Origin: Aestuariimicrobium kwangyangense DSM 21549
GTDB taxonomy: Bacteria; Actinomycetota; Actinomycetes; Propionibacteriales; Propionibacteriaceae
NCBI RefSeq assembly: GCF_000421525.1
Contig: NZ_ATXE01000001.1
Coordinates: 310,001-374,000 of the forward strand
Direction of reading: 5' to 3'
DNA: 64,000 bases
Positions 28,887 to 48,478 of this stretch are shown here, one piece after another; position 1 is the first letter of the stretch, and each line of letters starts with the position of its first letter. The translations under genes were made by a program, and so were the position numbers. The notes below the pieces were generated by a model. The model did no database searches, was not told where the DNA came from, and was given only the letters and a program-made list of their open reading frames with translations.

Positions 28887-29636
28887 TCATGTCGACGAGG
28901 TGAGGTCGGCCCACACGATCACATTGGAGTCGTACGTGTGCTGCGACCGATCGTACTGTCCACCACACGTGATCAGGATGAGCCGTGGCGTGGGGTCGGC
29001 CGAATACACCTCCTGGGCGGGGAAGCTGTTCTTGGGAAAGGTGCCGATCCTGCGCACGGTGAAGGTGGCGGTGGTGCCGTCGGCGCGGCTGACCGACACC
29101 TGCGTGCCGACCTTGACCTCGCCCAGCCGGTAGAAGACGGTCGGACGACGGTTCCAGGTCACGTGCCCCGCCACCACCGCCGTGCCCGGTCCCCCGGGGG
29201 TGTGTGCCCCGGTGAACCAGCCCGCCAGGTCGGGGTTGTCGGGGGTCTGCATGGCGCCCCCGTCGAGCCCCAGTGACACCAGCGACGACGAGACGCCGAT
29301 GCTGCCGATGGTGAGGCGTTGGGGGATCGACTCCGTGAGCCGGGCAGTCTGGGGAGACGAGGACGGCCCCACCGTGGGTGCACTGCTCCCGGTGGTGGAG
29401 CCGGAACGCGAGCTGGTCGCCCGAGAACTTGGGCCTGAGCTGGTCGGACCCATCGACGTCGGGGGAGCCGACGCGGTGACGACCGGCCCCTCGGCGGCCA
29501 CCGGAGCCGGGGGCCCCGGCTCCTGACCGGTCAGGGCGACCGCGACTGCGGTGACCCCGGCCAGAGCCATGACCGCCACCGCCGCCGCCCAGCGTGCGGG
29601 GGTTCCGACGAGGAGACGACGACGGGGTGGGGTCAT
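28887..29636 (-). CDS. Class F sortase
   Basis: A 249-residue membrane-anchored transpeptidase that attaches surface proteins to the wall. After an N-terminal membrane helix (residues 15-35) and a Ser/Thr/Pro spacer comes the sortase barrel with catalytic H158 (VVAGHVTW) and C224 (LILITCGG). The third catalytic residue is unusual: class F enzymes normally have Tyr-Arg-x-Asn about 12 residues after the Cys, while here it reads TYDSN; the nearest Arg is R230 at +6. The gene lies between a CHRD-like surface protein and sigK/rskA. A DUF4397 protein with LPHTG at 41.9-42.7 kb is a plausible substrate. Confidence 0.88.
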   Translation of the reverse strand: MTPPRRRLLVGTPARWAAAVAVMALAGVTAVAVALTGQEPGPPAPVAAEGPVVTASAPPTSMGPTSSGPSSRATSSRSGSTTGSSAPTVGPSSSPQTARLTESIPQRLTIGSIGVSSSLVSLGLDGGAMQTPDNPDLAGWFTGAHTPGGPGTAVVAGHVTWNRRPTVFYRLGEVKVGTQVSVSRADGTTATFTVRRIGTFPKNSFPAQEVYSADPTPRLILITCGGQYDRSQHTYDSNVIVWADLTSST

Positions 29637-36765: not shown

Positions 36766-39485
36766 GGCTGCTGCGCGCCCTGGGCGCCCTGGTTGCCCTC
36801 ACCGCCCTCCTCCTCGGAGTGCCCGCGGCCCTGTTCGCGTGGGGTGACCTCGGCGCACTGGCGCCCTCCCGCTGGGGCACGCTCTGGTCGGGTGCGGCCA
36901 CCGCGGGAACGGTGATTGCCGTGGTCACGCTCGTGGGATGGGCGTGTTGGGTGTTGCTGATGGTCAGCACCGTGGCAGAGGTGGTCGCCACACTGTCCGG
37001 GGATCGAGTGCGCTGGCGAGTGCCCCTGACGGGCTGGGTGCAGCCGATCGTCGCTGGGCTGCTGGCGGCCGTCGTGGCAGGACTCCCAGGGGTGTCGTCG
37101 ATGGAGCGCTTCGGCGAGCACGAGCCGATGACACCACCGTCGATCGCCGTCCCCAGCTCCGTGGCTGAATCGGACGTTGCGGCGGCCCCCGGTTCGATCC
37201 GGAGCAGTGACGCCGAACCTTCCTTGAGCAGCTCGCGAAGCGTCCACGTGGTCGCCGACGGTGAGGAATTGTGGACGATCGCCGAAAATCGCTACGGGGA
37301 CGGCCAACGCTGGCAGCAGATCGCCGAAGCGAACGGACTCACCCTCGATTCCCCGATCCTTCCCGGGATGCGACTGGTGCTCCCGGGCGTTCCTCAGGCT
37401 CAGGCGGTGGCTGGTCCGGGAGCCCCTCCCCAGTCGGCACCGGACCGGGTCGTCGTCCGGGCTGGTGACAGCCTCTGGACCATCGCCGAGGAGCACCTCG
37501 GTGATCCCGAGCGTTGGCCCGAGATCGCAGACCTGAACCGCACCCTGATCATCGACCCGGATGAGATCGAGGTCGGCTGGACGATCGTTCTTCCCCACGC
37601 CGAAGAAGAGGACCCACCGAGCCCCGCCCCGATTCCGGAGGACTCCGAGCAGGACCCGTGGCAAGCTGAGCCGACAGGTACGCCTGCAGACCCATCCGCG
37701 ACGTCGACCCCCACCACCACGGCTTCCCCTGACGCGACCGGCGCCGGTCAGCCACCATCGGGGAACACGGCGGCTCCAGCAACGTCGCCCGCGCCGCCGC
37801 CAACCCAGGTCGGGCCGCCCTCGGCTCGTCCGCACTCCGATACCGACGATGCCCCCTTGTTCACGCGCGAGCCTCTCCGCCTGCTCGCCGGTGGCCTCAC
37901 TGCTGCCTTGGCGGCGGCGGTGAGCGCTGGTCTCGTGGTGCGGCACCGCATCCAGAGTGACCAGCGTGATCTGGGACGACGCCCGGTGCCCGCGGGGGAG
38001 TCGAGCCGTCGTCTCGAGGCAGTGTGGGCCGCCCAGGCCGACGAGGCCACCGAGCCCAGCGGCGTCACGGGGACCACTGTCATCGTCGGCGAAACCCTCG
38101 ACGAGCAGCAGCCCGTCACCTTTGACCTGACCGGCGTCACGGTCGTCCGCGGACCGGAAGCACTCACTCGTGACCTGCTGGGCGCGGTGTGCACGTGTCT
38201 GGCGTCAGCCGAGTGGAGTGCCACCACCGAGGTGGTCGTGGTCGGACGAGGTCTGGCCTGGACGACCGCGCTCGACAGCCCCATGCTCCGGTACGCCCCC
38301 GAAGCTGCCGTGGAACTCCGTGCGGCGGCCGAACGCGCCCACCACCGACGCGTCGCGGCCGACGAACTGGATGCGGACCTGGCCGAGGTCGTCGTCTTCG
38401 CCGACCTCCTGGAGGCCGACGAACGCGACCTGCTCATCGAGGTGTTCGAGGACGCTCCCGGGATGGCCGCCGTCGTGATCGACAACCCCGGACGGACCCC
38501 GTGGACGCGACACGGATGCGTCATTCGGGTCGACGACGAAGCGACTGCGCGCGTGGGTGAGGGTGCACCGTTCGTCCCCTGTCTGGTCGGCGCCCCGGCG
38601 CGCCGGGCCCTGATCGACCTGCACGCCAGCGCCACGACCACGGAGACGACGCGGGCGCCGTGGTGGGCCGATGATCCGCCGCCGGGCGTGAGCACCATTC
38701 ACAACCCGCCCGACATCCTGGAGGAGGCCAGCATGACCGCCGTCGACGCACATCGCGACAGACCGACGTTGCTGCTGCTCGGCCCCATCCAGCTGGTCGG
38801 GACGCGTGGCACCCGACCGTCTCGCGCGGTGAAGGCCTGCGAGGAGTACTGCGGGTGGCTTCTCGAGAACCCGGGCCAGTCCAGCCAGAAGATGGCCCAG
38901 TCGCTGATGGTGGCCGAAGCAACCAGAAGGTCAAACATGAGCCGTCTCCGCGTCTGGCTGGGCGCCGATGAACGTGGTCAACAGTTTCTGCCGGAGGCCT
39001 ACACGGGGCGCATCCAGCTTCATCCCGGCGTCTCGTCCGATTGGGACGAGCTGCAACTCCTGATTCAGGCCGGGGTGAACCGCACCCCCAGCCAGGCGTT
39101 GGTGCAGGCACTGCAACTGGTGAGGGGTGAGCCTCTGGCCGACGCCGCTCCCGGGTTGTGGCACTGGGCCGAGCAGTGGCGACGCGACATGATCGCCACC
39201 CTGCGCGACATCGCGTTGGTGCTGGGGCAACGCAGCCTCGACAGTGACGACCTCGAGGTGGCCAGGTGGGCGCTCAAGCGAGGGCTGGCGTGCGCACCGA
39301 CCGATGAGTTGCTGTTGAGCATGATGATCCGCGTGGAACACCGGTTGGGGAACCGCGGTGAGGCGGAGCGGCTCGTGATGTTGGTGACCCGTCTGGCCCG
39401 GACCCGCGGTTACGACCTGCGAGTCGACACCGTGATGCTGATCCAGGAGGTCATGGAGGGGCGGATCCGGACCCGGAAGGCCTGA
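36762..39485 (+). CDS. Membrane protein with two LysM domains and a C-terminal BTAD domain
   Basis: A 907-residue protein ending the Tad operon. Three hydrophobic regions lie near residues 5-27, 45-75 and 95-110, then two LysM repeats (160-209 with ELWTIAENRYGDGQRW, 229-279 with SLWTIAEEHLGDPERW), a long Pro/Thr linker, a further helix near 370-392 and a large C-terminal part ending in a bacterial transcriptional activator domain (about 750-907; LQALQLVRGEPLADAAPGLWHW). LysM binds peptidoglycan while BTAD occurs in SARP-type regulators, so it may link the wall to a cytoplasmic regulatory or scaffold function. No DNA-binding winged helix is obvious. Similar LysM-BTAD proteins sit in other actinobacterial Tad loci. 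Confidence 0.8.
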   Translation: MRLLRALGALVALTALLLGVPAALFAWGDLGALAPSRWGTLWSGAATAGTVIAVVTLVGWACWVLLMVSTVAEVVATLSGDRVRWRVPLTGWVQPIVAGLLAAVVAGLPGVSSMERFGEHEPMTPPSIAVPSSVAESDVAAAPGSIRSSDAEPSLSSSRSVHVVADGEELWTIAENRYGDGQRWQQIAEANGLTLDSPILPGMRLVLPGVPQAQAVAGPGAPPQSAPDRVVVRAGDSLWTIAEEHLGDPERWPEIADLNRTLIIDPDEIEVGWTIVLPHAEEEDPPSPAPIPEDSEQDPWQAEPTGTPADPSATSTPTTTASPDATGAGQPPSGNTAAPATSPAPPPTQVGPPSARPHSDTDDAPLFTREPLRLLAGGLTAALAAAVSAGLVVRHRIQSDQRDLGRRPVPAGESSRRLEAVWAAQADEATEPSGVTGTTVIVGETLDEQQPVTFDLTGVTVVRGPEALTRDLLGAVCTCLASAEWSATTEVVVVGRGLAWTTALDSPMLRYAPEAAVELRAAAERAHHRRVAADELDADLAEVVVFADLLEADERDLLIEVFEDAPGMAAVVIDNPGRTPWTRHGCVIRVDDEATARVGEGAPFVPCLVGAPARRALIDLHASATTTETTRAPWWADDPPPGVSTIHNPPDILEEASMTAVDAHRDRPTLLLLGPIQLVGTRGTRPSRAVKACEEYCGWLLENPGQSSQKMAQSLMVAEATRRSNMSRLRVWLGADERGQQFLPEAYTGRIQLHPGVSSDWDELQLLIQAGVNRTPSQALVQALQLVRGEPLADAAPGLWHWAEQWRRDMIATLRDIALVLGQRSLDSDDLEVARWALKRGLACAPTDELLLSMMIRVEHRLGNRGEAERLVMLVTRLARTRGYDLRVDTVMLIQEVMEGRIRTRKA

Positions 39486-39498
39486 GCCGTTCCGTCGC

Positions 39499-39564
39499 AG
39501 ACTCTCGCCTTCGGGACAGACTTCACCGCTACAACCGGGCAGTTTGTCCCAAAGGTGAGAGTCT
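39499..39564. repeat. Palindromic intergenic element, copy A
   Basis: Arms of 24 nt (39499-39522 and 39541-39564) pair with only three mismatches, all transitions, around an 18-nt loop. The left arm reads AGACTCTCGCCTTCGGGACA. It is related to the element at 11181-11251. It sits between the convergent LysM-BTAD and MFS genes, where it could also act as a terminator. Confidence 0.8.
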
Positions 39565-39588
39565 CCCGGTGGGGAGGGCGATCCGGCT

Positions 39589-41001
39589 TCAGGCCGGCTC
39601 GGCCCTGGGCTCCTCCGCCACGGTCACCACGGGCGCAACCTCGTCCTCGATCGCCTGCTGTTCCCCAACCAGGCTGCCCGACCCGTGCTGACCGACGTCA
39701 AAGGCCTCGCGGCCACCGGTTCGTCCGGTCTGCCACCAGAACCAGACCGCAAGCAGCAGGTAGGCGACACCAGTGCCGATGAACACCAGGTGGCTGAACC
39801 CGCCGGCGGGCAACACGAGGATCGCCAATGCTGCGGCCGCCACGATCGCGGCGTTGAAGAGCATGTCGTAGATCACGAAGACGCGACCCTTGTAGTTGTC
39901 ATCCACATGGATCTGGCAGACGGTGTCGACCACGATCTTGATCGACTGCGCGAACAACCCGATGCCGAAGGCGGCGATCAGCAGTGTCGTCCGGTGAAAG
40001 ATGGATCCCGGAATGGCCTGCATCACGGCGGTGCCGAGCAGCAGCATCATCAAGGTGGTGCGCAGCCCGAACCGGTGGGCCAGCGGCGGCACCAACACGG
40101 CGGACAGGACGAAGCCGACGCCGGTGAACGCACCCCACAGGCCGATGTCGGCCATGGCCGCGTTGACCTGCTTCACCGTGTGGAAGTAGTTGCGGTACCC
40201 GAGGATGACGCCGACCGAGATCAGTCCGAAGCACATGCGGGCGACGAAGATGGTGGTCAGTCCGATGCCGATGGGGGCCTGGTGGCGGATCACCGAGAGG
40301 GCTTCGCGTAGGTCGGGCAGCACCCGTTTGACGCTCGGACGGGACTGCCCCGGTTCGGGTCCGAGTTCGTGTTTGCCGAAGCCGAAGGCCAGGGCCACCG
40401 AGGTGCAGAACATCAGCGCGGCCACGACGAAGACGATGGCATCGGCCTGGTGGGTCTGCATGTAGCGGGGGGCCAGGGCGACCCGAAGCCCGCCGGCGAT
40501 GGCACCACCGATCAGCACCCCGGTGGGGCCGATGGTGGGCATGATCGAACTGGCGGTGAGGTACTCCGACTTGTTCACGGTGTACGGCAGGCCCGCGGTC
40601 AACCCGGCCAGCAGGAAGCGGTTGGCGCTCATCGCCACCAGCAGCAGCCCGAACATCACCGCCTGGATCCGGAACGATCGATCGCCGGTGAACACCAACG
40701 CGGCCAGGCTCAGGGCGATGGTGGCGCGCAGCGCGTCGGTCCAGACCACCACCCGCTGGCGCGACCAGCGGTCGAGCACCACCGAGGCGAAGGGACCCAG
40801 GAACGAGAAGGGCAGCAGGGTGATGGCCAACACCGCGGCGATCGCGACCGCGTTGGGTTGCGACTGGGGGCTGAAGAGCACGTAGCTGGCCATGCCCACC
40901 TGCAGGGTTCCGTCGGAGGCCTGGGTGGCGATGCGCACCGCCAGCAACCGCTTGAACTTGGGGTGCCTCGCCATGCGCTGGATGCTGCGCCAGAAGTGCA
41001 C
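39589..41001 (-). CDS. MFS transporter
   Basis: A 470-residue permease with twelve hydrophobic segments; the charged loop DRWSRQRVVVWTDALRA after TM2 is the MFS motif A variant of the enterobactin-exporter-like (EntS/MdtG) branch. The C-terminal 60 residues are a soluble tail ending in acidic and Ala-rich sequence. The GTG at 41001 has GAGGAAG upstream, which favours it over the ATG nine codons later. The substrate is unknown; no siderophore or biosynthetic genes are nearby. Confidence 0.83.
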   Translation of the reverse strand: MHFWRSIQRMARHPKFKRLLAVRIATQASDGTLQVGMASYVLFSPQSQPNAVAIAAVLAITLLPFSFLGPFASVVLDRWSRQRVVVWTDALRATIALSLAALVFTGDRSFRIQAVMFGLLLVAMSANRFLLAGLTAGLPYTVNKSEYLTASSIMPTIGPTGVLIGGAIAGGLRVALAPRYMQTHQADAIVFVVAALMFCTSVALAFGFGKHELGPEPGQSRPSVKRVLPDLREALSVIRHQAPIGIGLTTIFVARMCFGLISVGVILGYRNYFHTVKQVNAAMADIGLWGAFTGVGFVLSAVLVPPLAHRFGLRTTLMMLLLGTAVMQAIPGSIFHRTTLLIAAFGIGLFAQSIKIVVDTVCQIHVDDNYKGRVFVIYDMLFNAAIVAAAALAILVLPAGGFSHLVFIGTGVAYLLLAVWFWWQTGRTGGREAFDVGQHGSGSLVGEQQAIEDEVAPVVTVAEEPRAEPA

Positions 41002-41137
41002 GGGCTTCCTCGGGTGTGAAGGGTGGGCAGGGGTCGATCTGGCGCCAGCCTAGCCGCGCTCCAGACCCCACCCGGCCCCGCGCGTGAGCTCAGCGGAAGG
41101 TGCAGGGGTTTCCCGGGGGAGGCTCGGCCCACGCCGG

Positions 41138-41143
41138 TAGGCT
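41138..41143 (+). promoter_or_regulatory. Putative -10 box (TAGGCT) of leaderless small gene
   Basis: TAGGCT precedes the ATG at 41150 by exactly 6 nt. Confidence 0.55.
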
Positions 41144-41149
41144 CGGGGC

Positions 41150-41539
41150 ATGAACCAGCGCCGGGAGGATGCGAAGCTCCGCTTCGAACTCAGCCAGGGC
41201 CAGGCCCGCAGCGAGGCGGTGGCCGCCCAGAAGTTGATCGACGACTTCGTGGCCACCTGCGTCGAACGTGGCATCGCTCCCGAACCGTTGAAGGCCCGGC
41301 TGATGACCGGGCAGGTGGTGAAGACCGACCGCAAGGGTTGGTACATCCGCGCCAACAAGTCGCTGGCCATCGGCGACGGCGGGGAGTTCTACCAACTCAC
41401 CGTGCCCGGGTCGATGCTCGAGCGACTTCGTGGGGTGAATCTGGAGCCCACCCAGCCTGTGCTGGTGGTCAATCGAGGCGGACGAGACGGTGATGCCGGC
41501 GACCTCGCCGACTTCCTGGCCTGGCGGCTCGCCACCTGA
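41150..41539 (+). CDS. Conserved small hypothetical protein
   Basis: A 129-residue cytoplasmic protein I do not recognise. The N-terminal half is helical and charged (REDAKLRFELSQGQARSEAVAAQKLIDDFVATC), the second half beta-rich (VVKTDRKGWYIRANKSLAIGDGGEFYQLTVPGS) and ends with PVLVVNRGGRDGDAGDLADFLAWRL. The DRKGWYIR-xx-KSLAIG part looks like a conserved core. No signal peptide or membrane segment is present. The 3' end, including the stop codon, lies in a 14-bp tandem repeat. It is flanked by an MFS gene and a 328-bp non-coding stretch. Confidence 0.75.
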   Translation: MNQRREDAKLRFELSQGQARSEAVAAQKLIDDFVATCVERGIAPEPLKARLMTGQVVKTDRKGWYIRANKSLAIGDGGEFYQLTVPGSMLERLRGVNLEPTQPVLVVNRGGRDGDAGDLADFLAWRLAT

Positions 41540-41567
41540 GGCTCGCCACCTGAGGCTCGCCACCTGG
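41526..41567 (+). repeat. 14-bp tandem repeat across a stop codon, three copies
   Basis: GGCTCGCCACCTGA occurs at 41526-41539 and 41540-41553, and 41554-41567 differs only in its last base. The first copy encodes the final residues and TGA stop of the small hypothetical protein; the second repeats that 3' end. A 14-bp unit shifts frame at each copy. Confidence 0.9.
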
Positions 41568-41867
41568 GCCTCTTCACTGGTGGACCAACTCGTCCCAGGG
41601 CATGCACCGGGGGACTGCTGGTCACCCCCAACAGCCCCCCGGGCGTCTGTGCAGCCTGTCAAGGAGTCACTGCACCGTGTCTCACTTCAAGCTTGTGACA
41701 ATGATGCATGTGGTCTCAGCTTGCGTCAAGGATTGCGGCAGTGTTGCCCGCCACGACTTCACCGGTTCTGCGTCTGCGACAAGCCATTTCCCTCACGGTC
41801 AGGGCTTTCACGCGGCGAAGCCGTGACTGAGTTATTCTCAGCCACGGCCTCGCCGGGGGGCGACCTG
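41540..41867. other. 328-bp intergenic region without a supported gene
   Basis: Apart from the tandem repeat at its left end I see no gene. A 74-codon plus-strand frame at 41602 lacks a ribosome-binding site and protein-like composition. Base composition is less GC-rich than the flanks, and GGCTTTCACGCGGCGAAGCC near 41804-41823 could form a hairpin terminating the DUF4397 gene. Confidence 0.5.
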
Positions 41868-42680
41868 TCAGTTGCGGACGGCCGAACGGGTGCGACGCAG
41901 GGCGAGTGCTCCGACGAACGCGACCATCGCGGCCGAGGCGACGATCGGCAGCACGTTGCTGGTGGGCTCGTCCGCCACACCGGTGTGGGGAAGTCCGCCG
42001 CCCATCAACGTCACCTGCTGCACGGCCAGCGCCAGGTTCTTGCCTTCGGCCGAACCCCACGCGTACACGATGGTGTTGTGGCCCTGGCTCAGCTTCACGT
42101 CGGACGGGCCGATGGCCACGGTGTCGGTTCCGGCGAGCACGACATCGGCCGAGACGGTGCCGGGAGCGAGGTCGAGGGCGGCCTGCTTCGGGTTGGCCAG
42201 TCCGGGTACGACGACCTTGCCGCCTGCACGAACGTCGACGGCCGGGGCGGCTGCGACGTGACGCACCGTCAGCCGGGCACCCTTCGACGAGGCGCTGGTG
42301 TCGTTCGCGAAGGCGGTGAGCACCGGCTTGCCCATGGCGTCGAGGTGGGCGACGAGGGTGAGGTTGGCTCCGGCGGGAACCTGCAGGCCCTTGGCCTCGA
42401 TCACCGCTGCGGCGGTGGCGGGATCGCCGGCCTTGACGATCTTGATGTCGTAGCTGCCGGCGGGCATCGCCTGCGGCTCGGTCAGGGTGCCGGGCTTGAA
42501 GTTGGTGAGCAACGGCTTGCCGTTGGCCCACACGTCGACGGTGGCACCCGGCACGGCGTGCAGCACGCTGACCTGCGAGGTCTGGGGTGCGGAGTGGGCC
42601 GCCGGTGAGGTGAGTGCCATCCCCAGGATGGCGAGCAGGGTGGCGCTGATGGCCGCCGCGACTCGTCGAATGGTGTGCAT
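41868..42680 (-). CDS. LPxTG-anchored DUF4397 surface protein
   Basis: A 270-residue cell-wall protein. The signal peptide runs to about residue 31 (AHSA), then two DUF4397-like beta domains start at SVLHAVPGATVDVWANG and LTVRHVAAAPAVDVRAGG. The C-terminus is a complete sorting signal: LPHTG at 230-234, a hydrophobic helix and an Arg-rich tail. The class F sortase at 28.9-29.6 kb could anchor it. GGAG upstream fixes the ATG at 42680. It is divergent from a CarH/LitR-like regulator, with a palindromic site between them, so light- or B12-dependent control is possible. Confidence 0.88.
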   Translation of the reverse strand: MHTIRRVAAAISATLLAILGMALTSPAAHSAPQTSQVSVLHAVPGATVDVWANGKPLLTNFKPGTLTEPQAMPAGSYDIKIVKAGDPATAAAVIEAKGLQVPAGANLTLVAHLDAMGKPVLTAFANDTSASSKGARLTVRHVAAAPAVDVRAGGKVVVPGLANPKQAALDLAPGTVSADVVLAGTDTVAIGPSDVKLSQGHNTIVYAWGSAEGKNLALAVQQVTLMGGGLPHTGVADEPTSNVLPIVASAAMVAFVGALALRRTRSAVRN

Positions 42681-42800
42681 GGGAGTCTCCTTGGAAATCT
42701 TCTGGGTGGGTCGGTGTGGGTGGATCGATCTGGCGAGGGGTCTGGTCCTCCTCGACCGCTTCCCCGTGTCGTCCATGTTGCGCAGACCTCGACAACAAAT

Positions 42801-42825
42801 CTAGACAAGCTGAGGTTTTGTCTAG
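42801..42825. promoter_or_regulatory. Palindromic operator CTAGACAA-9-TTGTCTAG
   Basis: Perfect 8-bp inverted arms with a 9-nt spacer lie between the divergent DUF4397 and MerR-type B12-binding regulator genes. The right arm is about 20 bp upstream of the regulator's -10 box, so the site is likely bound by that regulator. Confidence 0.65.
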
Positions 42826-42844
42826 CTTTTGGTGCTGGTGACCC

Positions 42845-42850
42845 TAGGCT
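42845..42850 (+). promoter_or_regulatory. Putative -10 box (TAGGCT) of the B12-binding regulator gene
   Basis: TAGGCT lies about 38 nt upstream of the ATG at 42889; here a GGAAGGA ribosome-binding site exists, so the mRNA has a short leader. Confidence 0.5.
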
Positions 42851-42888
42851 TCGGGGTGGGCCGGGGTTCAGCCGGCGGAAGGACCACC

Positions 42889-43731
42889 ATGGACGCACCC
42901 CACTCCATCGGCGACGTGGCTCGGGTGACCGGGCTGCCGATCGCCACCCTGCGCGCCTGGGAGACCCGCTACCGCGTGGTGGAGCCGCACCGCCACGACA
43001 GCGGCATCCGTCGCTATGACGACGAACAGGTCGCGCGCCTGCGTCGCATGCGCGACCTGGTCGAGGCCGGTATCCCTCCCCGCAAGGCGGCCCAGTTGCT
43101 CGACACGACCAGCGGCACCATCCCGCCTTCTGCGCTGCTCGACCACGAGGCGCTGCTGCGCTCACCCCGCGACCCCCAGACCCTCGAGGCACTCATCGAC
43201 CAGCAGTTCGCCCAGGGCAAGGTCGAGACGGTCATCGACCAGTGGCTGATGCCCTCCTTGCGCCGGGTGGGGGAGGCCTGGTCTGCCGGTGACCTCGACG
43301 TGGCCACCGAGCACCTGATCAGCGCGGCCGTGATGCATCGGCTGGCCGCCTTCTACGCTGCCGCCCGCGCCTCGGGCCCCAGGGTGGCGGTGGGGCTCCC
43401 CGCGAAGGCGCGCCACGAACTGCCCGCCCTGGCGCTCGCCCTGTGCCTGCGCCGCCTCGACGTCAACGTCATCTACCTCGGGGCCGACGTGCCCGCGCAG
43501 AGTTGGCAGGTGGTGGCCCACCGCTATCGTCCTGCCGCCGCGGTGGTGGGCGTCGCGACCGTCGCCGACGTCGACTCGGGCGAGCAGGCGGTGCGCGCGT
43601 GTCACGCAGCCGGACTGCGGCACGTCTTCGTCGGTGGACGAGCCGCCGCCGGCGTGGACGAGGCCATCACCCTGCCCGGCACGCTCTCGGACGCGGCCGC
43701 CGCCATCGCGGCGACGGTGGCCAAGGCCTGA
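42889..43731 (+). CDS. CarH/LitR-like adenosylcobalamin-dependent MerR-type photoreceptor regulator
   Basis: A 280-residue regulator. The N-terminal MerR helix-turn-helix (SIGDVARVTGLPIATLRAWETRY) is followed by a four-helix light-sensing cap with the motif W131-x9-E141-H142, the pattern that in CarH covers the upper face of adenosylcobalamin, and a C-terminal Rossmann B12-binding domain with H176 (KARHELP) as candidate lower ligand and VFVGG. The usual E-x-H-x-x-G lower-ligand motif is changed to A-x-H-x-x-P, so B12 affinity may differ. Known relatives repress carotenoid or photoprotection genes in the dark; here the adjacent divergent gene encodes a surface protein. Confidence 0.88.
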   Translation: MDAPHSIGDVARVTGLPIATLRAWETRYRVVEPHRHDSGIRRYDDEQVARLRRMRDLVEAGIPPRKAAQLLDTTSGTIPPSALLDHEALLRSPRDPQTLEALIDQQFAQGKVETVIDQWLMPSLRRVGEAWSAGDLDVATEHLISAAVMHRLAAFYAAARASGPRVAVGLPAKARHELPALALALCLRRLDVNVIYLGADVPAQSWQVVAHRYRPAAAVVGVATVADVDSGEQAVRACHAAGLRHVFVGGRAAAGVDEAITLPGTLSDAAAAIAATVAKA

Positions 43732-43758
43732 GCCCTGACCACCGCCCGCTTGCTGTCC

Positions 43759-43782
43759 CTGATGGGAGTCGACTCCGATCAG
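43759..43782. terminator. Palindrome over the end of the ABC permease gene
   Basis: Two 12-nt halves are inverse complements with a single mismatch and contain the perfect palindrome GGAGTCGACTCC (43765-43776). It spans the stop codon of the minus-strand permease gene, next to the convergent regulator gene. Confidence 0.4.
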
Positions 43783-46277
43783 TCGGCCGCCAGCGCCTGC
43801 GTGGGAGCAGCGTTCGCGGCACGTCGTCCGGGAAGGATCGATGCCAACGAGGCAGCCACCACGGCGATGGCGATCAGGGCGAGCGTCTGCCACGGGTCGA
43901 TCGCGAAGTCGAGCCGGCCGGCGTCGACGCCCGCGGCGCGGAAGATCGACCCCACCCCGAGCCACGCGAAGAAGCTGCCCGCCAGGATGCCCACCACCAC
44001 ACCGACCAGCGCCAGCGCCACCGCCTCGAGCCACAGCATCAGTCGCAGCTTGGCCTTGTGCATGCCCAGCGCTCGCAGCAGGGCCGACTCGCGGGTGCGT
44101 TCGATCACCGAGAGTCCCAACGTGTTGGCCACGCCCACCAGTGCGATCAGCACCGCCACCCCCAACAGCGCGGTGGCGATCGTCAGCAGCACGTTCAGCA
44201 CGCGGTTGATCACGTAGGCCTCCATGGCCCCACCGCTCAACGACAGGTACTGGCCCTCGGACTGCGGCAGCGTCTGCAGTTGCAGCATGGTGCGGGCGAA
44301 GTTGTCGCGGTCGACGAGCTTGATCCACGTGGTCATCGGCTTCGCGTTGGGCATCAGCTGGGTCAGCGTCGATTCGCTGACGACCAGCATCATCGGGCCC
44401 GCCGCGTTGTTCTTCTGCACCTTGAGCGTGACCGTCCGACCGCCGACGGTGAAGGTGCCGGTGTCACCACCGAACTCGTCCTTCACTTGGGCGAGGGTGC
44501 TGTTGTCGACCAGCGCGGTGCCCGCCGGGATGCTCGCGGGCAGGGTGCTGGCCACTTGGCCGGCGTCGGAGTTGGCCCCCACCACCATGAACATGTTGCC
44601 GTTCTGGGTGGCGATGGGCCCCCCCTTCAGGACGGCGGCGTGGCTCACCCCCGGGAGGGCACCCAGCTTGTCCTGCACCTCGGTGCTCAGACCCTCGGGT
44701 GAGGTGGCGCTGACCTGCAGGTCGACCGGGTAGCGCTGGTCGATCTGGTTGATGGCGGTCGTCCGGACGCTGGCCGTGGCGACCTGCAGGGTGACGATCA
44801 GTCCCATCGCCAGCATCAGCGCGACGGCGGTGGCCGCGGCCCGGTTCGGGTTGCGGGACGCGTTCATGGTCGCCATCCGCGCCGTCGGGCCGGTGAGTCC
44901 CGTCAGCTTGCCCAGCCCCCGGATCAGCCACGACACGTACAGCGGGGCGGCCGCGAGCACCGCGACCGCGATGAACGCGGCGGCAGCCACGGCATAGGCG
45001 ACGGTCGTGATCGCCTGGGTCGTGTCGGTGTCGGTGTTGACGCCCTGGCTGAGTGAGAGCGCCATGAAGCCGATCCCGATCAGCAACAGCACGCCACAGA
45101 TGACGGCCCGCACGATCGACACCTTCTTCACCGCGTCGGCCGTGAGCACGGGCTGCAGGGCCTCGAGGGGCTTGACCCGTGAGGTCTTCCAGACCGGCAC
45201 CAGCGCGGCCAGCACGGTGATCAGCACCCCGACGCCGACCTCGATCAGCAGTTCGACGGGCGGGAACCGCAGCCCCCAGTAGAGGGAGCCCGTGAACGCC
45301 GCCCCGGCTGCCGCCAGCCCGGCGCCGGCGGCGACACCGACGACCGATCCCACCAGCCCGGTGACGAGTGCCTCCGCCAGCAACTGGCGTCGCACCTGGC
45401 CGGTGCTGGCGCCGACGGCCCGCAGTAGGCCGATCTGACGTCGTCGTTGGGTGATCAGGATGGTGAACGTGTTCGAGATGATGATCATGCCGACGACCAG
45501 CGCGATACCCGCGAACACCATCAGGAAGGTGCGAATCGCGTCGACGCCCTGGGTGAGCTGGGTCAACTGGTCATCCATGTAGGCCTGCTTGGTCACGACG
45601 TGGTCGCGCACCTCGCTCGGCACGGCGGCCTTGACCCGTTCGGCGACCTGATCGGCCGAGGAGCCCGGGTCGGTCTTCACCAGGACCATCGACGGGTAGG
45701 CGTTCAGGGCGGTGGCCGCGGCCGGCGCCAGGTAGCCCAGCGGCATCAGCAGGCTCTTGGGGTCGTCGGTGATGCCCACCAGGGTCAGCTTCTGCTGGCC
45801 GTTGAAGGTCACCGTGCCACCGACGGAGAGCCCGAGCTTCCTGGCGATGTCGTGGGGCAGGGCCAGTTCGGTGGCCGACTGCGGCCATCGTCCCTCATCG
45901 ATCTTCGCCCAGCGGAAGTCGGGGCCGGTGAGCACCAGCAGTTGCAGGTAGGCCACCGTCTCGCCGTTGTCGAGGGTGCCTCCGGTGGAACTGACCGGCT
46001 CGGCCGCCTTCACGCCCTTGACACCCGCGACCGTGGTCGCCAGTGCCTTCGCGGGGGCAGCGGGGTCGGTTCCCTCCGCCTCGGGGGGCGGCACATAGCT
46101 GATGACCACGTCGGAGGCCGTCACCTGGCGGTTCAGTTGGCCGCCCAGACCGTTCTTCTCGGTGGCCAGGTAGATCGAGGTGCCAGCCATGAACGCCACC
46201 GAGATCGCGATCGCGATCAGGGTGGCCACCATGCGGCCGGGGTGCTGCCGGATCTCGGCCAGCGCGTTGCGGAACAT
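43779..46277 (-). CDS. ABC transporter permease (FtsX/MacB type)
   Basis: An 832-residue permease with two FtsX domains. The N-terminal helix (MVATLIAIAISVAFMAGT) is followed by a large extracytoplasmic MacB-like domain, a block of three helices with FTILITQRRRQIGLLRAVGAS, then a second periplasmic domain and a final block with GLSVIERTRESALLRALGM. Such permeases extrude lipoproteins, peptides or antimicrobial molecules rather than classic nutrients. It overlaps the ATPase gene by 1 nt (TGATG), so the two are co-translated. The cargo is unknown. Confidence 0.9.
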   Translation of the reverse strand: MFRNALAEIRQHPGRMVATLIAIAISVAFMAGTSIYLATEKNGLGGQLNRQVTASDVVISYVPPPEAEGTDPAAPAKALATTVAGVKGVKAAEPVSSTGGTLDNGETVAYLQLLVLTGPDFRWAKIDEGRWPQSATELALPHDIARKLGLSVGGTVTFNGQQKLTLVGITDDPKSLLMPLGYLAPAAATALNAYPSMVLVKTDPGSSADQVAERVKAAVPSEVRDHVVTKQAYMDDQLTQLTQGVDAIRTFLMVFAGIALVVGMIIISNTFTILITQRRRQIGLLRAVGASTGQVRRQLLAEALVTGLVGSVVGVAAGAGLAAAGAAFTGSLYWGLRFPPVELLIEVGVGVLITVLAALVPVWKTSRVKPLEALQPVLTADAVKKVSIVRAVICGVLLLIGIGFMALSLSQGVNTDTDTTQAITTVAYAVAAAAFIAVAVLAAAPLYVSWLIRGLGKLTGLTGPTARMATMNASRNPNRAAATAVALMLAMGLIVTLQVATASVRTTAINQIDQRYPVDLQVSATSPEGLSTEVQDKLGALPGVSHAAVLKGGPIATQNGNMFMVVGANSDAGQVASTLPASIPAGTALVDNSTLAQVKDEFGGDTGTFTVGGRTVTLKVQKNNAAGPMMLVVSESTLTQLMPNAKPMTTWIKLVDRDNFARTMLQLQTLPQSEGQYLSLSGGAMEAYVINRVLNVLLTIATALLGVAVLIALVGVANTLGLSVIERTRESALLRALGMHKAKLRLMLWLEAVALALVGVVVGILAGSFFAWLGVGSIFRAAGVDAGRLDFAIDPWQTLALIAIAVVAASLASILPGRRAANAAPTQALAAD

Positions 46278-47134
46278 CAGCGCTCCAGGGTGGCCAGCGC
46301 GTGGGTGACCTGGTCGACGTCGGGGTCGGTCAGGTCGTCGACGATGTGCCCGTCGAGCAGCACCAGCACCCGGTCGGCGTAGGCCGCCGCCTTCGGGTCG
46401 TGGGTGACCATGATGATTGACTGCCCCAGGTCGTCGACGGAGCGGCGCAGGTAGTTGAGCAGGGCCGTGCCCGTCTTCGAGTCGAGGGCACCGGTCGGTT
46501 CGTCGGCGAAGATCACGTCGGGACGAGTGACCATGGCCCGGGCAATCGCCACCCGCTGCTGCTGACCGCCGGAGAGTTCGGACGGACGGTGGGTGAGGCG
46601 GTCGGTCAGGCCGAGCGACTCCGCGAGTTGGGTCACCCATGCCTCGTCCGGTTTGCGGCCGGCCAGGTCGAGGGGGAGCACGATGTTCTGCCGTGCCGTC
46701 AGCGTCGGCAGCAGGTTGAAGCTCTGGAAGACGAATCCCAGCCGGTCGCGGCGCACATTGGTCAGCTTGGAGTCGGGCAGCCGGTTGAGTTCCTCACCGG
46801 CCAGGAAGACCTGCCCGGCGGTGATGCGGTCGAGCCCCGCCAGGCAGTGCATCAGGGTCGACTTGCCCGAACCGGAGGGACCCATGATCGCGGTGAACGA
46901 CCCCCGCTGGAAGCTCACCGACACCCGGTCGAGGGCCACCACCTGGGTCTTGTCGGTGCCGTAGACCTTCACCAGGTCGCGGGCCTCGGCCACCACCGAA
47001 GGGGTGAGGGATGACCGGGCTCCCTGCTGGCCCGCCACGGGGCCGAGGCCCGGGGCGGGGCTGGGACCAGTCGTGGGGACGGGGCTGAGGGTGGGGGACA
47101 TCGCCCGGCGGGCGGGGGACTGCTCCTGGGTCAC
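46277..47134 (-). CDS. ABC transporter ATP-binding protein (LolD/MacB type)
   Basis: A 285-residue ATPase. Walker A is GPSGSGKST (85-93), the Q-loop is in FVFQSFNLLPTLTARQN, the signature is LSGGQQQRVAIARAM, Walker B VIFADEPTGALDS and the switch His is in MVTHDP. It pairs with the downstream FtsX-type permease. The first 45 residues are a Pro/Ser-rich extension absent from typical LolD. The GTG at 47134 has AGAGAGG upstream, and a TAGGCT box lies about 33 nt before the start codon. Confidence 0.92.
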   Translation of the reverse strand: MTQEQSPARRAMSPTLSPVPTTGPSPAPGLGPVAGQQGARSSLTPSVVAEARDLVKVYGTDKTQVVALDRVSVSFQRGSFTAIMGPSGSGKSTLMHCLAGLDRITAGQVFLAGEELNRLPDSKLTNVRRDRLGFVFQSFNLLPTLTARQNIVLPLDLAGRKPDEAWVTQLAESLGLTDRLTHRPSELSGGQQQRVAIARAMVTRPDVIFADEPTGALDSKTGTALLNYLRRSVDDLGQSIIMVTHDPKAAAYADRVLVLLDGHIVDDLTDPDVDQVTHALATLER

Positions 47135-47326
47135 GGGTGTGCCTCTCTCTGGCTGGTGGCACCCGTCAGCCTAGGTGGCGGCCGTGGCAGCTCGACAGCC
47201 ACCGGGGGTGGTCTCGTGCCAAGTCAGGTCTACGACCGGGGTCCTACGACCCCCCGGGACCAACCCGGTCAGCCCCGATCCCGAGCCCCGAGCCGAGCCA
47301 CTCGGCGCACACCGATCTCGGGCGCG

Positions 47327-48478
47327 TCAGCCCTTCGCCGGCTGCACGTCGACCGGCACACCGTCGTGGCGCATCGACCAGGCAGCCGCCACGCCGGTGG
47401 CGACGGCATTGCGGGCCGCGGCCGACGGCACCCGGGTGTGATCGATGCGTCCGTAGGCGTAGTCGAGGAACTCGGAGATGATCTTCTCGTCGGCGTCCAG
47501 GTGCCCCCCGAAGTCGCCCGTGATCGGGAACTCCTCATCGGCCTCGTAGGCCATGTTCACCCGCCGGTTCCACAGCTTCACGACCCCGCCCTCGCCGTCG
47601 CCGAAGTTCTCGATGCGTCCGAGGTCACCGATCACGGTGTAGTTGCGCCAGTAGTCGGGGGTGAAGTGGCACTGCTGGTAGCTGGCCAGGATGCCGTTGT
47701 CGAGCATCATGTTGACCTGCGCCAGGTCTTCCATGTCGAGGTCGGCATTGAGTCCGGTCAGTTCACGCGGGGGCCAGTTCGTCATGGGACGACGGTCGAC
47801 CCAGTCGAGCCCGTGCGAGGGTTCGCGGTCGACGGTGTCGCCGAAGACCGCCAGACGCCCGAAGGCCTGCACGCGGCGGGTGTAGCCGCCGGCCAGGTAG
47901 TGGATCACGTCGATGTCGTGGGCGCCCTTCTGCAGCAGCAGGGTGTTGCCGTACCGCTGCTCGGCGTGCCAGTCACGGAAGTAGGCGTCGCCGCCGAAAC
48001 CGACGAAGTGACGGCACCAGATCGCCTGCACCGCACCGATCCGACCCTCGTCGATCAGCTTCTTGAGGATGCCGATCACCCCCATGAAGCGCATGTTGTG
48101 ACCCACGAACAGCCGGGTGCCGGTCTCGTCCGCCAGTCGCAGCAGGGCGTCGGCGTCCTCGGTCTGGATCGACATCGGCTTCTCGAGGTAGGTGGTGACC
48201 CCCGCCTTGAGCAGGGCGGACGCGTGCTCGAAGTGAACCGCGTCGGGGGAGGTGACCAGGGCTCCGTCGAGAGGGGTGCCCAGCTGCTGGCGGGTGGCCA
48301 GCAGGTCGGCGATCGTGTCGTGCACCCGCACCTGGTCGCCGAACATCTCGCGGGCGCGCCGCTTGCCCGACTCGAACGGGTCGACCACGTCGCTGACCAC
48401 CGAACGTGGGTCGACCTTGGAGATCACCTGCCCCAGGTATGACCTGTCGCCGGCCCCGATGATCGCGAACTCACCCAC
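47327..48478 (-). CDS. Gfo/Idh/MocA family oxidoreductase
   Basis: A 383-residue NAD(P)-dependent sugar/cyclitol dehydrogenase. The Rossmann part starts EFAIIGAGDRSYLGQVI; TYLEKPMS contains the Glu-Lys-Pro catalytic motif and KGAHDIDVIHYLAGG the active-site His-Asp region. Residues after 140 form the beta-sheet substrate domain. Its substrate is unknown. The GTG start has AGGAG upstream. It is one of three Gfo/Idh proteins in the window but is not part of the operon with the other two. Confidence 0.9.
   Translation of the reverse strand: MGEFAIIGAGDRSYLGQVISKVDPRSVVSDVVDPFESGKRRAREMFGDQVRVHDTIADLLATRQQLGTPLDGALVTSPDAVHFEHASALLKAGVTTYLEKPMSIQTEDADALLRLADETGTRLFVGHNMRFMGVIGILKKLIDEGRIGAVQAIWCRHFVGFGGDAYFRDWHAEQRYGNTLLLQKGAHDIDVIHYLAGGYTRRVQAFGRLAVFGDTVDREPSHGLDWVDRRPMTNWPPRELTGLNADLDMEDLAQVNMMLDNGILASYQQCHFTPDYWRNYTVIGDLGRIENFGDGEGGVVKLWNRRVNMAYEADEEFPITGDFGGHLDADEKIISEFLDYAYGRIDHTRVPSAAARNAVATGVAAAWSMRHDGVPVDVQPAKG

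Follow-up and report, generated by a model that had tools for sequence, protein, structure and literature searches.

A CarH-like regulator gene divergent from a DUF4397 surface-protein gene, with CarH-type sites before DUF4397 genes of related genera

Introduction

CarH of Thermus thermophilus and the class I LitR proteins are adenosylcobalamin (AdoCbl) photoreceptors that repress carotenoid genes. CarH/LitR proteins are known mainly for the control of pigment and photolyase genes. In the 64-kb stretch of DNA analysed here (the window), a gene for a protein of this type lies divergent from a gene for a DUF4397 protein with a putative wall anchor. This raises the question of whether a CarH-type switch also serves the cell surface. 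A literature search with most subscription journals outside its scope turned up no paper linking CarH/LitR with DUF4397 or an LPXTG protein; because of that scope, the absence is no proof. The same search gave next to nothing on DUF4397 and, by title or start of abstract, none on DUF4397 and light.

The regulator and its likely signal

The regulator gene (42889–43731, + strand) encodes a protein of 280 aa with a MerR helix-turn-helix (HTH) and a B12-binding domain. It starts with the ATG at 42889, which has GGAAGG upstream (by eye), and its stop codon ends at 43731. An FtsX-type permease gene lies downstream and is convergent. The protein matches Pfam MerR_1 (E 8.3e-17), the N-terminal MerR HTH typical of CarH and class I LitR, and B12-binding_2, the four-helix domain (E 6.6e-10). 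It has no match to PF02310 at E 0.001, yet the alignment with T. thermophilus CarH (TtCarH) spans that part, to residue 262. The closest solved structures are the TtCarH chains 3whp and 5c8d (E about 1e-26, residues 5–262). W131, E141 and H142 align with the same residues of TtCarH and form the cap motif Wx9EH, and H176 aligns with the lower His, H177; all four positions correspond to AdoCbl-contacting residues of TtCarH. The CarH/LitR-type architecture with an adenosyl-cap motif proposed in the initial annotation is supported, and its residue numbering is right.

Conservation was examined in 42 aligned relatives, a set that excludes the window protein and TtCarH and in which two rows are one protein of the sister species. 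The cap residues are found in 39 (Trp), 40 (Glu) and 38 (His) of them, and the lower His in 39. CarH has been defined jointly, in a section of PMC8156234, by Wx9EH and the motif ExHxxG...SxV/T...GG. Here the regulator keeps the His and the GG and has Ala for Glu, Pro for Gly and Gly for Ser, the lower-ligand stretch reading A-R-H-E-L-P. This A-x-H-x-x-P stretch had been singled out as modified. The letters are right, and the residue counts make it ordinary: Glu occurs in 6/42 relatives and Ala is commonest at this position (11/42), and the Gly position has Gly in 13 and Pro in 7. The Ser of SxV is mostly Gly also in the cap-bearing relatives (27/38). An altered ligand chemistry peculiar to this regulator was rejected, these residues being common in relatives.

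A light signature consisting of GxxW, EH, GxxH and GxxxP is set out in part of PMC11796333; the regulator has three of the four elements, and GxxH reads KARH. With the NCBIfam CarH equivalog NF052513 the protein scores 115.7 bits against a cut-off of 400, which is below threshold and the best among the listed families. It is called CarH-like here because it departs from the joint definition and from one element of the light signature and falls short of the NCBIfam cut-off. By analogy, it probably works like CarH. The same caveat on strict membership applies to many carotenoid-linked relatives. A section of PMC8156234 describes how, in TtCarH, light turns the His next to the Trp into the upper ligand. 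This position, H132, is occupied by S132 in the regulator, and it is His in 1/42 aligned relatives.

A link to defence was also sought; the only match was to the HTH part of mad1 (E 9e-11, residues 5–53). A related-locus search of genome contigs gave one match, limited to the HTH.

Perhaps the signal is not light. A CarH-like repressor of the DUF4397 gene could respond to the cobalamin level, or act free of B12 as does Myxococcus CarA, whose B12 independence is described in part of PMC9304148. The degenerate classic B12 motif, S132 and the Lys at the Gly of GxxH are compatible with such a signal, as is a related MerR protein of the sister species, which has lost both Wx9EH and the lower His; B12-independent forms may therefore arise in the group. 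However, Wx9EH and the lower His are intact in the regulator and in most relatives, and the same class of site (see below) precedes the photolyase and carotenoid genes of the window's own genome. A signal other than light thus seems unlikely, and a light-responsive repressor is the reading carried forward.

The divergent pair and its history

The initial annotation placed the regulator divergent from the DUF4397 gene, and this holds: the regulator gene (42889–43731, +) faces away from the DUF4397 gene (41868–42680, −). The pair is present in 2/2 genomes of the genus examined, that of the window (G000) and that of a sister species (G001), the only other one. The sister-species orthologues are 68% (regulator) and 72% (DUF4397) identical to those of the window. 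Going by high G+C and by its relatives, the window's genome is probably that of an actinobacterium. Among 34 other CarH-like loci taken with 1.5-kb flanks, IdiCrtE/CrtI genes are found in 21 and DUF4397 in none.

A tree built from 38 proteins joins the window protein, its sister-species orthologue and a carotenoid-linked protein of genome G021 in one group (99/99); the carotenoid-linked paralogue of the window's genome (L057) groups with G155. An origin of the regulator as a recent duplicate of that paralogue is therefore unsupported. The simplest reading of the sequence comparisons would be that a former carotenoid regulator came to serve the DUF4397 gene.

The DUF4397 protein

The DUF4397 gene (41868–42680, − strand) encodes 270 aa (Pfam E 8.2e-29). 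The likely start is 42680 and not the start of the open reading frame at 42776, as judged by eye from the ribosome-binding site, and the N-terminal end is signal-peptide-like, also by eye. Near the C-terminal end is the sorting-type motif LPHTG (41979–41993, −), followed by a hydrophobic helix (residues 251–268 in the AlphaFold model) and a basic tail. The protein thus has the LPxTG motif, helix and tail of a wall-anchored protein in a genome that has sortase, and it may be attached to the wall. Its designation as an LPxTG surface protein suits this one protein; LPxTG as a conserved anchoring motif does not stand. Only 3/50 aligned homologues, the window protein included, have a strict LPxTG near the C-terminal end (5/50 with LPxAG/LAxTG), and the sister-species protein has MPDTG in place of LPHTG.

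Two sortase-domain matches are found in the genome of the window. A sortase-domain match lies at window positions 28902–29315 (−; coordinates calculated from the whole-genome match), about 13 kb from the DUF4397 gene.

An AlphaFold model from a 50-sequence alignment (mean pLDDT 83) predicts two tandem beta-sandwich domains in the DUF4397 region; a single-sequence model was useless (mean pLDDT 42). The best structural matches are to the extracellular domains of PepT1/PepT2 (Z 13–15), followed by HGSNAT (about 10–11), AlgF domains (9.0 and 9.6) and, at about 7–9, cholesterol-dependent cytolysins through their last domain. The model was also compared with Foldseek. These matches to a model are best taken as beta-sandwich resemblances, an arrangement common to extracellular modules, and no function is claimed from them. 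By sequence, the search for a solved relative gave none, the best E being 0.78.

A CarH-type site between the genes

CarH operators are described, in parts of PMC9304148 and PMC8156234, as tandem 11-bp repeats with the core TnnACA (TGTnnA on the opposite strand). A 23-bp motif, AATGTTTGTCTAAGGTTTGTCCA, was fitted on the upstream regions of 37 relatives from a seed picked by eye; its consensus has two TGTnnA cores 11 bp apart. A first version excluded only the window locus and its sister-species orthologue (30/36 promoters gave a site), and its training still held other MerR/B12 promoters of both genomes of the genus (L057, L058). A second version excluded all regions of both genomes (28/34 promoters gave a site). 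Bit scores are those of the second motif unless marked; shuffles, gap control and Fisher test are based on the first.

The top match in the 64-kb window is AGGTTTTGTCTAGCTTTTGGTGC (42813–42835, +), a predicted CarH/LitR-type site between the two genes, with 13.9 bits; the next match has 5.2. With the first motif it has 13.3 bits, and 10/5000 dinucleotide shuffles of the intergenic region score as high. The sister-species intergenic region has 17.6 bits (3/5000 shuffles as high with the first motif), and of 27 window gaps scored with the first motif no other one rises above 3.0 bits. A CarH-type site between the regulator gene and the DUF4397 gene is supported, and it recurs in the sister species.

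The site has one full TGTnnA core (42819–42824), and its 11-bp neighbours are degenerate (by eye). The TnnACA core TCGACA (42789–42794, +) faces the core at 42819. In a gapless alignment, read by eye, the sister species has both cores as well, with the same spacing of 30 bp. A further TnnACA core, TAGACA (42802–42807, +), lies in the left arm of a palindrome discussed below and is GAGATA in the sister species (by eye). Compared with a tandem 11-bp operator, the motif class is present, but with one full core, the others being degenerate or inverted (by eye).

The core pattern has three matches in the genome of the window: the window site, one before the carotenoid-linked CarH paralogue and one before the photolyase gene. 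There are two in the sister species, and a backwards control pattern gives 0 in each genome. The second motif, for which these regions were held out, recovers a site of 32.8 bits next to the carotenoid-linked paralogue, and before the photolyase gene two sites 11 bp apart (20.8 and 15.9 bits).

Several neighbouring observations may be recorded. Near the carotenoid-linked CarH gene of the window's genome is a small gene called DUF2249 by eye (L038 8232–9010), with a hemerythrin-like gene (by eye). The carotenoid cluster of that genome has the CarH paralogue; the sister-species cluster (L154 8359–11544, G001:C56) has an adjoining MarR gene (Pfam) and no site above 3.9 bits. The photolyase gene of the sister species has a weak site of 10.9 bits. 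The second MerR/B12 homologue of the sister species, the one without Wx9EH and the lower His (L040 9178–10264, G001:C56), is possibly a CarA-like, B12-independent form. The region that separates it from a divergently oriented gene, WhiB-like by eye, has strong tandem sites of 23.4 and 17.7 bits.

DUF4397 genes in other genomes

A DUF4397 homologue is found in 38/198 genomes of the family, and 30 DUF4397 loci were scanned besides the two of the window genus. The motif lies upstream of DUF4397 in 4/30 loci, which belong to three other genera: G082 (25.9 bits), G161 (25.7), G124 (20.7) and G159 (20.2). The next score is 8.6. Each of the four sites beats 300/300 shuffles with the first motif. A fifth case concerns a gene pair, in G125, where a 20.2-bit site precedes an SRPBCC gene running into DUF4397. 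The G082 site has a TTTTT core in place of TTTGT. Photolyase genes occur in the DUF4397 loci of G124, G159 and G125. In G161 (L126) DUF4397 is followed in the row by genes for a sortase and an ECF sigma factor and by one that matches no Pfam family; sortase is likewise near DUF4397 in G159 (L119), and, by eye, further DUF4397 rows among the loci listed resemble that of G161.

In 880,852 positions of the 30 loci, there are 12 matches of at least 13 bits: 11 are in L110, L112, L119, L125 and L126 (one being the L112 CarH promoter) and one is in L108. As a control, 4/161 other gaps reach 13 bits with the first motif; identified by score, these are the L112 CarH promoter, a second L112 site, the L110 site and L108.

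An upstream site is found in 6/18 genomes with a CarH homologue, the window genus included, and in 0/14 without (Fisher p 0.024; 0.10 without the window genus; both uncorrected for relatedness). The link between site and CarH is thus weak once the window genus is left out. Also, a strong site immediately upstream of the scanned DUF4397 gene is missing from 12/18 genomes that have a CarH homologue, which speaks against a general rule. In another family of the order, 60/294 genomes have DUF4397; 30 loci were taken, and none of the 26 upstream regions scanned exceeds 5.0 bits with the first motif.

Some details of individual loci are of interest in themselves. The G124 cluster (L112 8159–12465) contains a CarH-like gene, a cyclopropane-synthase-type gene, photolyase, DUF4397 and several CarH-type sites. 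In G082 (L125 8014–8392) DUF4397 shares the site with a gene on its other side, divergent from it and resembling the one called DUF2249 (by eye). In the other family, L161 has a stretch like TTGTCGAAGTTTTTGTCTAGATT about 92 bp upstream of DUF4397, which resembles the window half-sites (5.0 bits, first motif), and L156 has a look-alike about 92 bp upstream (4.0 bits, first motif).

The CarH-type sites before DUF4397 in other genera suggest added support for CarH-type control of these genes. Because the motif also precedes DUF4397 in those genera, DUF4397 is probably a recurrent member of the CarH regulon; this would hold for four genera, of which the window genus has a regulator dedicated to the gene.

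The site might instead serve autoregulation of the regulator only, the DUF4397 gene being a bystander under its own control. The motif does point towards the regulator, and in the window, G159, G161 and G082 alike it is oriented away from DUF4397; the frequency of carotenoid genes beside CarH-like loci (21/34, with 0 beside DUF4397) and the many DUF4397 genes of the family without a site agree with this. But both pair and site are retained in the two species of the genus, and in G159, G161 and G082 the motif precedes DUF4397 genes that have no adjacent CarH gene, so that autoregulation only appears quite improbable.

These last three genomes also bear on which protein is at work. Control of the DUF4397 promoter could lie with the carotenoid-linked paralogue, alone or together with the adjacent gene's product, which would then not be the sole regulator. 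DUF4397 sites without an adjacent CarH gene would fit, and the motif is of one class at all three places in the window's genome. Against this, the window site is a poor tandem match (13.9 bits against 32.8 at the paralogue), as would fit diverged specificity, and the sister species has the pair without a carotenoid-linked CarH. Control by the paralogue appears about as improbable as autoregulation only, and the adjacent gene is retained as the candidate regulator.

The palindrome

The exact palindrome CTAGACAA-9-TTGTCTAG (42801–42825) overlaps the predicted site. At up to 3 mismatches its pattern has one match in the 64-kb window (shuffle mean 0.03). Genome-wide, the core pattern occurs exactly at a single place and with 3 mismatches at two more, and a backwards control pattern has 25 matches per strand; a repeated genome-wide operator was rejected on these counts. 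The left arm is not retained in the sister species, where the gapless alignment reads CGAGATAA. The palindrome of the initial annotation therefore exists and is exact, and it is not a conserved unit. What the two species have in common is a group of CarH-type half-sites, and not the palindrome.

That the palindrome is an intrinsic terminator and no operator, as a consensus scan labelled it (terminator-like, 9 pairs, 3 G-C), is scarcely credible given its place between divergent genes, the sister species that retains the half-sites and loses the hairpin, and a motif model from other promoters that picks the same place. The consensus scan gave no sigma-70-like promoter in 42560–43000, and no known RNA element was found in 38000–48000 at gathering scores.

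Proposed regulation and its meaning

We lean, by a small degree, towards the regulator being a class-I-LitR/CarH-like repressor of both the divergent DUF4397 gene and its own gene, with repression relieved by light. In the dark, an AdoCbl-loaded oligomer would occupy the block 42789–42835 and keep both genes low. In light, the cofactor would be split, the oligomer would fall apart and repression would be lost. The surface protein would then be made along with carotenoids and photolyase, the promoters of which bear the same class of site in this genome, near the second, carotenoid-linked CarH paralogue.

The proposal builds on what the sequences show: the architecture of the protein with its cap residues, a motif of the operator class at three places in the genome, the pair in two species and the motif before DUF4397 in three other genera. 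From the analogy with CarH we infer B12 binding, the light response and repression as the sign of control. That the window site is occupied by the adjacent CarH protein, and not by the paralogue, is likewise an inference. The degenerate B12 motif, the Ser at the position of light-state His132 and the single full core, not tandem, count against the proposal.

A wider proposal can be put forward tentatively, with rather less confidence. Tandem beta-sandwich DUF4397 surface proteins, some in a row with sortase and ECF sigma genes, could belong to the CarH/LitR light regulon of this actinobacterial family as an arm that has gone unrecognised. One genus would have given the surface protein its own photoreceptor, in the sister species unlinked from carotenoid genes, and light would remodel the cell surface. 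The genomic pattern is such that light may control the cell surface. If so, the response to light would go beyond switching on pigment and DNA repair, and B12 light sensing would reach the cell envelope of a Gram-positive bacterium through a CarH-type switch that acts on a sortase-type surface protein. Such a switch would also offer a physiological clue to DUF4397 proteins and a compact divergent promoter unit by which light could control expression. CarH-type control of DUF4397 is moderately surprising and directly testable.

Comparison with known systems

The window regulator resembles T. thermophilus CarH and class I LitR in its MerR HTH, B12 four-helix domain, Wx9EH and lower His, in the alignment over residues 5–262, and in a site class with TGTnnA/TnnACA cores. 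It differs from TtCarH in adjoining a surface-protein gene and not carotenoid genes, and in having AxHxxP...G for ExHxxG...SxV and Ser for the light-state His. Unlike CarH operators, the window site has one full core and an inverted partner, with no clear 11-bp tandem.

Carotenoid-linked CarH proteins of the family (the paralogue L057, L009 of G021 and L010 of G007) are 36–44% identical to the regulator, have the same motif class and share the deviation at the Glu of ExHxxG. They adjoin IdiCrtE/CrtI genes, unlike the window regulator, which does not group with its own paralogue.

There is also a likeness to Myxococcus CarA, the B12-independent CarH paralogue, whose proposed operator holds inverted repeats according to part of PMC9304148. 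In a section of PMC8156234, however, CarA is described as being without Wx9EH, which the window regulator has.

The DUF4397–sortase–ECF sigma row of G161 (L126) has a homologous DUF4397 protein and a CarH-type motif upstream. Unlike that row, the window genus has no adjacent sortase or sigma gene; a CarH-like gene is adjacent instead.
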